From the NCBI RefSeq assembly GCF_021026335.1, contig NZ_JAJNCY010000001.1, positions 372,001-436,000 on the forward strand: 64,000 nucleotides of DNA, written 5' to 3'. A program made the translations under genes and the position numbers. Numbering within the stretch: the stretch's first letter is position 1; every line of letters begins with the position of its first letter. The DNA comes from Rhizobium sp. C1 (GTDB lineage: Bacteria; Pseudomonadota; Alphaproteobacteria; Rhizobiales; Rhizobiaceae). Below are positions 9,687 to 44,405 of this stretch, piece after piece. The notes under the pieces were generated by a model, which was not told where the DNA came from, did not search any database, and saw nothing but the letters and a program-made list of their open reading frames with translations.

Positions 9687-9927
9687 TCCAGTCCCTCGGT
9701 TCAGCGACTCTTGTCCGGCAGCACCTGGGCCGCCGTCCAAGCATGCCGGGCTTTATATCGCGATATCTTAATTTAACATGCGATTGACTTCCAAATGTTT
9801 ACCGCCGGGCGTCTCAGCGGGGGCTTGCCTTGCGCTGAAATCCCCGGGCGGATCGTTGGAGAATGGCTTGAAACTGTTCCGATGCTCGCCTAGCCTAAGC
9901 AGACTTAGTTTTTCGCGCGGGGGATTG

Positions 9928-10167
9928 ATGCGCCAGGTCAATGTGCACGCAGCCAAGACGCATCTGTCGCGGCTGATCGAGGAAGTGGAGGGCGGCGAGA
10001 CTGTCATTCTGGCGCGGGCCGGCAAACCGGTCGCGCGGATCGTGCCCATAGAGGCTGAGCCTTCGGCCGGGCGGATCGGATTTCTCAAGGGCCACATCAG
10101 GGGCGGTGATATGTTCGACGTGTCGAAGCCCACCGAATTCGACGGGGTTCTTGGGGGCTTCTTTTGA
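9928..10167 (+). CDS. Antitoxin, Phd/YefM type
   Basis: Antitoxin of 79 residues. The Phd/YefM DNA-binding core is complete: MRQVNVHAAKTHLSRLIEEV, then ETVILARAGKPVARIVPIE. The C-terminal half (GHIRGGDMFDVSKPTEFDG) is the toxin-neutralising tail seen in Phd partners of PIN toxins. The start at 9928 follows a G-rich stretch. The stop overlaps the toxin start by 4 bp. It is expected to repress its own operon as a complex with the toxin. Confidence 0.88.
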   Translation: MRQVNVHAAKTHLSRLIEEVEGGETVILARAGKPVARIVPIEAEPSAGRIGFLKGHIRGGDMFDVSKPTEFDGVLGGFF

Positions 10168-10550
10168 AGATCCTGCTCGATACGCCCGTGCTTTTGTGGG
10201 TGGCGGCCGACAGTGTCGAGCTTGACGAGCCGGCGCGCCGTCTGATCCTGGACGATGGCAATGATCTCTATTTCAGCGCCGCCAGCATCTGGGAGATCGG
10301 GCTGCGTGGTGCCTCGAGTTTCGACGGGCCGCCTGTGGATGTGCGCATGCTGCGGCGCGGATTGCTCGACGCGGGCTATCGCGAGGTGCCGCTTCGCTCG
10401 GAACATGCGATGGCGGTTGGCGATTTCGAGGATCTGCCGGTCGATTCCTTCGCGCGGCTTCTTCTGGCGCAGGCGCGTTATGAGGGGCTGCTGTTGATGA
10501 CGGCGAAGCCGGGGCTGATCGCGCAAAAGGCGGGCATCTTGCCGATCTAG
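10164..10550 (+). CDS. PIN-domain toxin (VapC family), altered active site
   Basis: PIN-domain ribonuclease-type toxin of 128 residues, starting at a TTG that overlaps the antitoxin stop (TTGA). The first two acidic positions are present: D6 in ILLDTPVLLW and E44 in SIWEIGLR. The third, normally Asp in a DPFDRLLIAQA-type motif, is Ala97 (DSFARLLLAQA). The fourth, usually Asp in TAD, is Lys (LLMTAKPGL). Two of the four metal-binding acids are therefore missing, so the protein may be catalytically weak or inactive. The fold and gene pairing remain typical. Confidence 0.85.
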   Translation: MKILLDTPVLLWVAADSVELDEPARRLILDDGNDLYFSAASIWEIGLRGASSFDGPPVDVRMLRRGLLDAGYREVPLRSEHAMAVGDFEDLPVDSFARLLLAQARYEGLLLMTAKPGLIAQKAGILPI

Positions 10551-13187: not shown

Positions 13188-13244
13188 TTTGTTCCTGCGC
13201 AATTCCGCACGCGAAACCGGTTTCCACTTTCGCTGGAATTGCTC
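13188..13244 (-). repeat. Rhizobial intergenic palindrome, copy 2
   Basis: Minus-strand copy of the 57-bp element (GAGCAATTCCAGCGAAAG to GGAATTGCGC plus an AAC-A tail). Its first bases overlap the TGA stop of the GNAT gene at 13243. The arms GCAATTCC/GGAATTGC and inner AAACCGG/CCGGTTT could form a stem after the gene. Confidence 0.75.
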
Positions 13245-13764
13245 AAAGACCTGCGCGGAAGCGCATTCCGGTGGCGGGATAGGCCTTGAAGTCGAGGCCC
13301 TGGTAGTACTTGTAGGCGGCGAAATTGCCGGTCGCGGCACCCAGCGAAAGAAAGTCGCAGCCGAGTGTGCGGGCATGCGCCTTGGCGCGATCGATCAGAT
13401 GGCGGCCAATGCCTTCGCTGCGATGGCCGTCCTTGACGAAGAGGTGGTGCAGTTCCATGCCGCGTTCCCCTTCGGTGGCGCGGTAGACGGGATAGAGGAG
13501 GGCATAGCCGATCAGTTCCCCGCCCGTTTCAGCGACGAAGGCGGTCGCGAAGGGCTGGTCGCCGAAGAGATCCCGATCAAGCTTGGTGGCGCTGTTCGTC
13601 GTCTTGTCGCCGTGATGGGCGGCGAGCGCCTCGATCATGGCGGCGAGTGCGAAGAGATCCGCCTTCTGCGCACGGCGTACGCTGACACGCGCGGCTTCCG
13701 GCGCCGTGGGTGTTTCTTCTGTTGCGATGGTCTGTTCCAAGTTCAGCATTGCCTTCTTCCTCAT
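13243..13764 (-). CDS. GNAT family N-acetyltransferase
   Basis: Acetyl-CoA-dependent N-acetyltransferase of 173 residues. The GNAT core is clear: VRRAQKADLFALAAMI at the start of the domain (about residue 28), LIGYALLYPVY (beta 4), and the acetyl-CoA loop DGHRSEGIGRHLIDRA (Q/RxxGxG/A). The end is ATGNFAAYKYYQGLDF. The layout resembles diamine/thialysine-type acetyltransferases, but the substrate is unknown. It lies behind a leader peptide with aromatic codons and a terminator hairpin (13796-13897), so its expression probably responds to charged aromatic tRNAs. An internal ATG at 13749 is an alternative start. Confidence 0.85.
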   Translation of the reverse strand: MRKKAMLNLEQTIATEETPTAPEAARVSVRRAQKADLFALAAMIEALAAHHGDKTTNSATKLDRDLFGDQPFATAFVAETGGELIGYALLYPVYRATEGERGMELHHLFVKDGHRSEGIGRHLIDRAKAHARTLGCDFLSLGAATGNFAAYKYYQGLDFKAYPATGMRFRAGL

Positions 13765-13795
13765 TTTGCCTTCGGAAGAGCCGCTGAAAACAACA

Positions 13796-13845
13796 AGGCC
13801 GCCCCGAAGGCGGCCTCTTGTCGATATGATCGATCGCGGCCGCCG
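13796..13845 (-). promoter_or_regulatory. Transcription attenuator (terminator/antiterminator)
   Basis: On this strand the terminator is GGCCGCC (13815-13809), loop, GGCGGCC (13803-13797), then a T-rich tail. An upstream segment CGGCGGCCG (13845-13837) contains a second GGCGGCC that can pair with the terminator 5' arm instead, forming an antiterminator. A leader segment CGGCTG (13875-13870) can pair with CGGCCG of that upstream segment. This is the 1:2 / 2:3 / 3:4 scheme of amino-acid attenuators. It lies between the leader peptide and the GNAT gene. Confidence 0.7.
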
Positions 13846-13846
13846 G

Positions 13847-13897
13847 TTAACGGTAGCCCCAAAAATATACAGCCGTGGTGTGTGCCTGTGCGATCAT
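13847..13897 (-). CDS. Leader peptide MIAQAHTTAVYFWGYR
   Basis: Short reading frame of 16 codons whose end reads Val-Tyr-Phe-Trp-Gly-Tyr-Arg (codons TAT TTT TGG GGC TAC), then TAA. It may start at this ATG as a leaderless message, since the promoter at 13905-13933 places initiation at or next to it, or at an ATG four codons upstream (13909). Four aromatic codons in five positions next to an attenuator mark it as a regulatory peptide. Rhizobial trpL is similarly short and leaderless, but it carries three tandem Trp codons and precedes trpE. I know of no described leader with this sequence before a GNAT gene. Confidence 0.7.
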   Translation of the reverse strand: MIAQAHTTAVYFWGYR

Positions 13898-13904
13898 GGC
13901 GGGC

Positions 13905-13933
13905 AACATTCTCCTAAAGCGATTGAATGTCAA
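13905..13933 (-). promoter_or_regulatory. Sigma-70 promoter of the leader/GNAT unit
   Basis: On this strand a perfect -35 box TTGACA (13933-13928), a 17-bp spacer, and AATGTT as -10 (13910-13905). Initiation would fall about 7 bp later, at the leader peptide ATG at 13897. It overlaps the merR stop codon. Confidence 0.6.
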
Positions 13934-14376
13934 GTGGTCTCGTGGAGAGAATTGTGAACGTGACCGTGATCGGTGGTGCAAAGCGCGTGGTCGGCCAGCG
14001 TCGCCAGAACATTGCATTCGCCTGCGCGTCCGCCGGCGCATTCGGACACGATGTGTTCGAGCTCCGCTTCCAGCTTCTTCAACCGCGCGATCTTGGCGCG
14101 CACATCGGCCAGATTGTCGGCAGCGATGCGGTCTGCATCGTGGCAGGGGGCGTCAGGCGTTGCCTGGAGCGAGAGGAGATCGCGGATGGCTTCAACAGAG
14201 AAGCCGAGGTCTCGCGCATGGCGGATGAAATTCAGTCGCTCCAGATGGGCGCCGACATAGCGGCGCTGGTTGCCCTCCGTCCGCTCCGGCTCCGGCATCA
14301 GGCCGATCTCCTCGTAATAGCGGATCGTCGGGACCTTGACGCCGGCCGTCACTGAAAGCCTGCCGATGGTCATCAT
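13930..14376 (-). CDS. MerR family metal-type regulator
   Basis: Regulator of 148 residues. The N-terminal MerR HTH is IGRLSVTAGVKVPTIRYYEE, followed by the wing NQRRYV and a long dimerisation helix. Cysteines at about 78, 113, 121 and 133, with a His-rich tail (CTTDHGHVHN), match the ZntR/CadR/PbrR metal-binding pattern, so a divalent metal inducer is likely. No metal transporter is adjacent, which leaves the target unclear. The stop overlaps the promoter of the leader/GNAT unit. Confidence 0.82.
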   Translation of the reverse strand: MMTIGRLSVTAGVKVPTIRYYEEIGLMPEPERTEGNQRRYVGAHLERLNFIRHARDLGFSVEAIRDLLSLQATPDAPCHDADRIAADNLADVRAKIARLKKLEAELEHIVSECAGGRAGECNVLATLADHALCTTDHGHVHNSLHETT

Positions 14377-33044: not shown

Positions 33045-33400
33045 GATTTAGGTGGAGGTTTCTGTTGCCAGGTACCTCCGAACCCCGCCTTAAGGTGCTA
33101 ACCCTAAGGACTTAGGTCGGATTTCCCGCACCGCGATTAAGCAGCGAGAGCATAACCCTTAGCGTTGTTGTCGTTTGCAACTACACTTGTGACCCGATAA
33201 CGGTGGTATCATGCCGGGCAAAAAGTCGATCTTTACACCCTTGTCGATCCTATTTCGCCCCCATCAGAAGCCGCTCGCCGCGTGACACGCTTTCAGCGGT
33301 TTCTGGTGGAGGCGCCGGGTACCGCCCCCGGGTCCAATAGGTTTATTCCATCGCCCGTTTATTGCCATAGCCGCCTCGAAAGACGGCACTGTTCATATAA
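33045..33400 (-). ncRNA. ssrA: tmRNA, two-piece (circularly permuted)
   Basis: Ribosome-rescue RNA. Reading on this strand, the acceptor piece comes first and ends CGCCTCCACCA at 33305. After an excised loop the coding piece starts GGGGGCGAAATAGG at 33262. The two form a 7-bp acceptor stem with G.U at the third pair, the alanyl-tRNA synthetase identity. The tag frame at 33137-33178 encodes ANDNNAKGYALAA and stops with TAA. The 3' part to about 33050 contains further stems. The outer ends are estimated within about 20 bases. The permuted order is characteristic of alphaproteobacteria. Confidence 0.92.
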
Positions 33401-33563
33401 GTGTTATGGGAGCGGATGAAAAGGGCCGTTCGCCAAATCCAGCGAATTTGAGGACGCGATTTCGGCCGTTGCTGCAATCTCTGCTTGACTTGAGGGTAAT
33501 TCGACTAAAAAATTCAATATGAGAATGCATTATAAAGCATCGGGAAAGCAGGGAGCAAACATC

Positions 33564-44235: not shown

Positions 44236-44292
44236 ATGAACAAGATGATTTCGCTTATCGTGGTGGGACGGCGCATGGGCAGGATGGTGTAA
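44236..44292 (+). CDS. ilvB leader peptide MNKMISLIVVGRRMGRMV
   Basis: Reading frame of 18 codons with Ile-Ser-Leu-Ile-Val-Val in a row, then TAA. It lies 114 bp before ilvB and 33 bp before a terminator. The clustering of Ile, Leu and Val codons is what attenuation by branched-chain amino acid supply requires. Confidence 0.75.
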   Translation: MNKMISLIVVGRRMGRMV

Positions 44293-44325
44293 CCATCCGG
44301 CGATAGCCACCCATGCGCTGCACAC

Positions 44326-44350
44326 AGGCTCCTCCAAGGGGCCTTTTTTT
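44326..44350 (+). terminator. ilvB attenuator terminator
   Basis: Stem AGGCTCC (44326-44332) with GGGGCCT (44338-44344), one G.U pair, loop TCCAA, then T7. It lies between the leader peptide and ilvB, the position expected of an attenuator. Confidence 0.85.
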
Positions 44351-44405
44351 ATGCCCTAAAACAAGCTAGACACCCCGCAAAACCAAGCAAAACGGAACAA
44401 GGACG

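Follow-up and report, generated by a model that had tools for sequence, protein, structure and literature searches.

A conserved aromatic leader peptide and predicted transcription attenuator ahead of a GNAT acetyltransferase gene in the Rhizobiaceae

The window analyzed here, a 64,000-nt stretch of Rhizobium sp. C1 DNA, carries on its minus strand a gene for a GNAT acetyltransferase of 168 aa (positions 13243-13749), preceded by a short leader open reading frame and a terminator. The most likely start of this gene is the ATG at 13749, located behind a Shine-Dalgarno (SD) sequence; the ORF listed from 13764 begins ahead of the SD. The encoded protein matches PF00583 with 64.5 bits (cut-off, 20.7). 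The leader ORF, delineated from the sequence and by comparison with homologs, consists of 16 codons plus stop (MIAQAHTTAVYFWGYR; 13847-13897, minus strand, as are all features below unless stated otherwise) and contains control codons for Tyr (TAT, 13867-13865), Phe (TTT, 13864-13862), and Trp (TGG, 13861-13859). The upstream neighbor (13930-14376) encodes a MerR-type regulator that scores under the CadR-PbrR cut-off. At other positions of the window, Rfam identifies an alphaproteobacterial tmRNA (33051-33426, minus strand) and the Rhizobiales sRNA Atu_C8 (44238-44360, plus strand), and two overlapping frames at 9778-10550 (plus strand) presumably encode a Phd/VapB-type antitoxin-like protein and a PIN-domain toxin-like protein.

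A -35 hexamer, TTGACA (13928-13933), read from the sequence, overlaps the stop codon of the MerR-type gene (13930-13932) and is separated by a 17-nt spacer from a -10 hexamer, AATGTT (13905-13910), located 7 nt upstream of the leader ATG. The -10 element is a weak consensus match, sharing three of six positions with TATAAT; a consensus promoter scan, which needs four, called no promoter at the leader. Among the 68 GNAT homolog loci described below, TTGAC is positioned 34-39 nt upstream of the leader ATG in every case (exact TTGACA in 66), suggesting that the RNA is probably leaderless, with its first nucleotide at the leader ATG or directly beside it. The MerR-type gene lies upstream in just 37 of the 68 loci as fetched, some of which end too close to judge; it is therefore not regarded as an essential part and was dropped as a candidate component of the system.

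Several segments of the leader RNA can engage in alternative pairings. Segment a (ATGATCG, 13891-13897), defined by pairing scores and folding, contains the start codon and is complementary to a′ (CGATCAT, 13826-13832), located in the loop of a candidate antiterminator. The 5′ arm of this antiterminator, b (GGCGGCC, 13838-13844), lies right behind the leader stop codon, and its partner b′ (GGCCGCC, 13809-13815) is common to the antiterminator and the terminator, whose 3′ arm, c (13787-13803), comprises GGCGGCC (13803-13797) and the U-rich tail TTGTTGTTTT (13796-13787). Segment l (GCCTTCGG, 13804-13811) spans the end of b′ and the terminator loop, and is the partner of the downstream arm d (CCGAAGGC, 13768-13775). 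Two bases of d are shared with the anti-SD arm e (TCTTCC, 13774-13779), which can pair with f (GGAAGA, 13755-13760), the SD region of the acetyltransferase gene. Re-reading of the minus strand confirmed the letters and coordinates that the original prediction had given for the promoter, leader ORF, GGCGGCC copies, and terminator, and a consensus scan recovered the claimed GGCCGCC/GGCGGCC terminator with its T-rich tail as a stem of 10 pairs.

Relatives of the acetyltransferase, sought at E ≤ 1e-20 in 297 genomes of the family (109 genera), were found in 68 genomes from 23 genera, and all 68 are preceded by the leader: TATTTTTGG occurs exactly in 53, and variants were found by reading in 15. 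GCGG is located 1-3 nt past the leader stop codon in every one of these loci, which, together with the retention of TTGACA, substantiates the expectation that the leader is conserved in relatives beyond chance. A covariance model, R1, was built from the 64 distinct leaders (identical leaders among the 68 being counted once); it matches the same 68 family genomes by construction, as their leaders built it, and has no match at E ≤ 0.001 in the remaining 229 family genomes. Another family genome, G677, which is outside the R1 training set, has MITHALHNCSYFWLYL ahead of a GNAT of this type and is an independent case of the leader with a GNAT. In the record of Sinorhizobium meliloti Ak57, the leader MIKNAPISSVYFWLFR precedes the GNAT gene LZK74_21115, which is flanked upstream by a helix-turn-helix gene and downstream by two genes for cytochrome c. 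A scan of genome contigs yielded three close relatives only. In addition, a Paracoccus marcusii plasmid encodes a GNAT (34% identical) behind the leader MNAASIVNYYRRLN, which contains Tyr-Tyr only. Judged by sequence comparison, the leader is conserved both in the family and outside it.

The leader frames of the 68 family loci are 15-17 aa long and begin with M-I in 65 cases; the middle of the peptide is variable, and its end, YFWx[FY]x, shows strong conservation in the family. The aromatic residues are ordered YFW in 56 leaders, WYF in 10, WFYY in one (L076), and YF, lacking Trp, in one (L075). In a tree of the GNATs with 64 rows, from which four near-copies and L018 had been omitted and to which a long-branch warning applies, the order of the block changed at least twice (WYF). 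Neither Trp nor Phe appears to be needed everywhere, since L075 has no Trp and the Paracoccus leader has Tyr-Tyr only. At codon positions -6 and -5 from the leader stop, the control Tyr codon is TAT in 64 of the 68 leaders and the control Phe codon is TTT in all of them. The penultimate aromatic codon of the same leaders (TTC 35, TTT 1, TAC 21, TAT 0) follows the preference of the GNAT genes (TTC 349 versus TTT 23 and TAC 240 versus TAT 89 in 67 genes, L018 being left out), and the control TAT and TTT go against it. Their maintenance against this preference suggests selection on codons and not on residues alone, which fits a putative role of decoding speed or of an unstructured U-rich stretch.

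The same leader is found ahead of other genes. An R1 search of 397 genomes of the order at E ≤ 0.01 returned 48 rows in 44 genomes, of which 10 rows belong to family genomes (8 among the 68, plus G677 and, at E 0.007, G158); of the 38 non-family rows, the reading covered 26, the other 12 being weak matches. Behind the matches at the 26 loci read are TyrRS at 13, prephenate dehydrogenase at 4, and DAHP synthase at 3, with 6 apparently unrelated. Among 385 genomes of the class, 13 loci were read (L147 is counted in both sets), with GNATs at 4 (WYF; families f118 and f144), TyrRS at 1 (VYF), TrpRS at 1 (IWW), prephenate dehydrogenase at 1 (LYY), small S4-domain proteins at 2 (WYF and YF), and 4 unrelated; for 249 genomes of the phylum, no such leader was present in four new loci (L159-L162). 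The matches judged unrelated on reading were L098, L099, L101, L102, L105, L144-L147, and L159-L162. Within the family, a second R1 match was found in 4 of the 68 genomes, with a TyrRS gene behind two of them; a Tyr-Tyr leader is followed by a TyrRS fragment only in the third (L151) and is kept with no TyrRS behind it in the fourth (L150). Pfam confirms all five prephenate dehydrogenases, all four class GNATs, one DAHP synthase, the TrpRS, and one TyrRS; of the S4-domain proteins, one matches S4 over the cut-off and one under it. Ten leader-linked TyrRS genes pass TIGR00234; similarity was the basis for assigning the remaining TyrRS genes and the other two DAHP synthases.

The aromatic codons of the leader vary with the gene behind it. 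Counted as sequences and not as independent events, 72 of 74 GNAT leaders contain Trp (68 from the family, G677, four from the class, and one from Paracoccus), and Trp is absent from all 17 leaders that precede a TyrRS gene or fragment (13 from the order, 1 from the class, and 3 from the family), which read YY, YFYY, or YF, and from all five prephenate dehydrogenase leaders, which read YY; the TrpRS leader reads WW and the three DAHP synthase leaders read YFWYF. This codon-to-gene match is the strongest evidence that the leader may sense tRNA charging. A second full TyrRS is encoded elsewhere in all 10 tested genomes with a full leader-linked TyrRS (the copy in G496 has one internal TGA), and the leader thus marks the spare TyrRS copy. 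Likewise, the TrpRS at L140, behind a Trp-Trp leader (MVNRPHLPAFIWWRSF), is a second TrpRS copy. The loci with TyrRS behind Tyr-rich leaders are L086, L087, L088, L091, L092, L094-L097, L103, L135, L148, L149, and L152-L154. Aromatic leaders at L142 and L143 are followed by small S4-domain proteins that stand alone and are similar to the C-terminus of TyrRS; each of these genomes has one TyrRS.

These comparisons bear on whether the peptide itself might be the sensor. A nascent-peptide arrest sensor of the TnaC or erm-leader type, in which the peptide would stall the ribosome together with a small molecule such as an antibiotic inactivated by the GNAT, has precedents, because GNATs include antibiotic acetyltransferases and leader peptides ahead of resistance genes are a known plan, and the strongly conserved YFWx[FY]x end is what it would predict. 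This explanation is nevertheless improbable: the aromatic residues change places (WYF, WFYY) and give way to YY or WW before other genes, codon choice is kept beyond the residue alone, and one RNA frame also precedes TyrRS, TrpRS, prephenate dehydrogenase, and DAHP synthase, its codons matching the gene each time. An arrest-peptide leader with fixed residues was rejected, as the order differs among YFW, WYF, WFYY, YF, and YY.

Regarding the RNA, 95.1% of cells are paired in b:b′ and 98.4% in b′:c, and both pairing counts and folding indicate that antiterminator and terminator are mutually exclusive through the common arm b′, in line with the suggestion that the upstream GGCGGCC can sequester the terminator 5′ arm. 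Covariation says little about b, b′, and c, because their cores hardly vary, and for a:a′, b:b′, and b′:c a slid register outscores the actual structure. The covariation of a:a′ comes mainly from one genus, in which ATGATC/GATCAT is replaced by ATGACG/CGTCAT (L073-L074) or ATGACA/TGTCAT (L075), and GATC is self-complementary. The l:d helix is paired in 92.8% of cells, with 50 cells changed on both sides versus 15.6 in shuffles; this count and the covariation score are above 500 of 500 shuffles and every slide, and the count of pairs in which both sides changed, four, is not above shuffles, 142 of 500 being as high. In a best-helix test (n = 63; L018 was left out, as its GNAT start was not found, and L069 was kept with a probably misplaced start, at 148 aa), l:d scored 20.84 versus 15.27 shuffled (s.d. 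0.52), e:f 12.95 versus 9.89 (s.d. 0.33), and a:a′ 14.05 versus 13.52 (s.d. 0.12), each above 200 of 200 partner shuffles, which keep no relatedness, so that these results are supports and not probabilities. At least four contiguous e:f pairs are present in 52 of the 63 loci and five l:d pairs in 59. A stem across the stop codon, formed by the post-control codons with b, scored 15.19 versus 13.74 shuffled (the largest of 200 shuffles reaching 14.36).

A further pairing had been proposed between CGGCTG, located just before the Tyr-Phe-Trp codons, and the upstream GGCGGCC. It is possible in the window (score 16.0) and is not conserved: over 64 leaders, the sequence preceding YFW scored 12.82 with the b copy versus 13.23 for partners shuffled between sequences, and the CGGCTG protector pairing was rejected as a general feature. 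Covariation of the three originally proposed pairings thus leaves b:b′ and b′:c as paired arms with hardly varying cores and the CGGCTG helix no better than shuffles. Additional elements that lay beyond the original prediction are a:a′, the covarying l:d and e:f, the probable GNAT start at 13749, and the occurrence of the leader before TyrRS, TrpRS, prephenate dehydrogenase, and DAHP synthase genes.

A riboswitch-type leader, in which the conserved RNA would bind a ligand directly and the short frame would be incidental, could also be expected to show strong conservation of structure and a covarying hairpin that sequesters the SD. Such a device is highly unlikely here, given that no Rfam family matches, that the frame, start codon, stop codon, and pairings account for the conserved segments, and that the aromatic codon set shifts with the downstream gene. 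At this site, Rfam 15 gave no gathering-score match (the best weak match had 17.7 bits versus 43), nor was there a match in 8 related loci, and membership in an Rfam family was rejected on the lack of a covariance-model match in these places.

The leaders were folded with the ribosome placed by hand, its front edge assumed to be 13 nt past the first base of the A-site. The terminator formed in 64 of 64 leaders with no ribosome, when a:a′ was present in 60 of 64 folds, and in 64 of 64 with the ribosome at the stop codon. When the ribosome waited on the first, second, or third codon of the aromatic block and the RNA ended at b′, the antiterminator was best in 64 of 64. If c had already been made, the terminator was the lowest-energy fold in 52-58 of 64 leaders despite the stalled ribosome; any antitermination must therefore be kinetic, depending on the order of synthesis.

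The leader, promoter phasing, alternative pairings, and codon match are supported by the comparison of loci, and the reading that we favor, with a probability of roughly 85%, is a ribosome-mediated transcription attenuator that would read the charging of tRNA-Tyr, tRNA-Phe, and tRNA-Trp and control a small-molecule-type GNAT. In this attenuator, transcription would begin at or beside the leader AUG. When the aromatic tRNAs are charged, a ribosome reaching the stop codon would cover b, allowing b′:c to pair and transcription to terminate at ~110 nt. A shortage of any one of these charged tRNAs would stall the ribosome on UAU-UUU-UGG and leave b free, so that b:b′ could pair ahead of the synthesis of c and the polymerase would read through; low aromatic charging would in this way induce the acetyltransferase gene. 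With no ribosome, a:a′, which joins the start codon to the antiterminator loop, and the small stop-codon stem would keep the terminator. On the read-through RNA, e:f would hide the GNAT ribosome-binding site, and pairing of d with the terminator loop (l:d) could open e:f, providing a putative second, translational gate; as d, e, and f are located 3′ of the terminator, they can act on read-through RNA only.

The closest known system in the same bacterial family is trpL/rnTrpL of S. meliloti, described in the accessible portions of PMC10117765 and PMC7298713 as a short frame at the RNA 5′ end that controls trpE(G) by transcription attenuation, with rnTrpL and peTrpL also reported to act in trans. 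The window leader shares with it a short frame, here predicted to lie at the 5′ end, predicted attenuation, and aromatic control codons. However, trpL has consecutive Trp codons with trpE downstream, whereas the window leader has one codon each for Tyr, Phe, and Trp with a GNAT gene downstream; trpL membership was rejected on the single Trp codon and the downstream GNAT. At E ≤ 0.01, R1 matched one place only in the window's genome, and trpL was not detected there. The proposal of a distinct attenuator accordingly stands, by comparison, as a non-trpL leader with Tyr/Phe/Trp codons before a GNAT, and fails as to the CGGCTG protector pairing.

By analogy with rnTrpL and peTrpL, the terminated RNA or its peptide might act mainly in trans, with cis-control of the GNAT being secondary. 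The predicted leaderless RNA of ~110 nt with a frame of 15-17 aa is built as rnTrpL is (accessible portions of PMC10117765 and PMC7298713), and the M-I start recurs in 65 of the 68 peptides, but the middle of the peptide is variable, and the co-occurrence of leader and GNAT in the same 68 of 297 genomes points to cis-control; predominant trans-action is therefore considered very improbable. No description of the leader was found in the literature searched, in which subscription papers are thinly covered, and the accessible portions of PMC2965389, PMC10117765, PMC1273637, PMC3817062, and PMC7298713 contain no mention of it. The leader thus represents an attenuator family with neither a match in Rfam 15 nor a literature description found, an absence that is not proof.

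For the favored attenuator, a broader parallel exists in Escherichia coli. There, the trp, phe, and his leaders have control codons ahead of alternative hairpins, and a ribosome at the stop codon favors termination, a scheme that the window leader shares in its control codons, its competing antiterminator and terminator, and the predicted effect of a stop-codon ribosome. It differs from the E. coli attenuators in its predicted start at the AUG, in a start codon that can pair with the antiterminator loop, in apparently reading three amino acids through one codon each, in the additional covarying SD-sequestering element, and in a target gene that lies outside known amino acid synthesis.

A profile of 27 GNAT relatives was compared with solved structures, and the best relatives include SSAT2 (2bei, E 4.7e-20), a probable N-acetyltransferase (2fe7, 8.7e-17), and thialysine acetyltransferase (12jc, E 1.9e-16), the likeness to SSAT2 and thialysine acetyltransferase being a sequence-profile relation only. 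These relatives suggest a small amine or amino acid, of either kind, as the possible substrate. At L137 and L139, the GNATs are distant superfamily members (hhalign, 97.7% and 97.1%). A structure predicted for the window GNAT by AlphaFold from four near-identical sequences had a mean pLDDT of 57 and was set aside. According to the accessible portions of PMC3817062, the MccE and RimL acetyltransferases inactivate aminoacyl nucleotides, and MccE is called homologous to the Rim family; they offer a GNAT precedent for protection of aminoacyl-tRNA synthetases. The window GNAT differs from them in matching PF00583 and the SSAT2/thialysine acetyltransferase type. MccE and RimL we take to be members of PF13302 (Acetyltransf_3), to which the window GNAT has no match at E ≤ 0.001.

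The leader tells what is sensed and not what job the enzyme does. Leader-linked TyrRS, TrpRS, prephenate dehydrogenase, and DAHP synthase would each be expected to restore aromatic charging, and in such company the GNAT might either contribute to the aromatic supply in an unrecognized way or protect against agents that reduce charging. A tentative extension, against which we would place the odds, is that one Alphaproteobacterial RNA device serves as an inducible defense of aromatic tRNA charging, supplying either a spare synthetase or an inhibitor-acetylating GNAT. An inhibitor or analog blocking TyrRS, PheRS, or TrpRS would lead to uncharged tRNA and a stalled leader ribosome, and the stall would turn on a second TyrRS or TrpRS, or else a GNAT that N-acetylates the inhibitor or analog.

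The reuse of one RNA frame before five kinds of gene, with matching control codons, amounts to a codon-swap experiment on attenuation performed by nature. It also suggests on-demand induction of the spare copies of TyrRS and TrpRS. The leader also ties an uncharacterized acetyltransferase to aromatic tRNA charging, thereby making its function testable. If the tentative defense proposal were true, this GNAT would be an unrecognized enzyme that detoxifies aromatic antimetabolites or compounds resembling aromatic aminoacyl nucleotides and is itself controlled through the damage that they cause.
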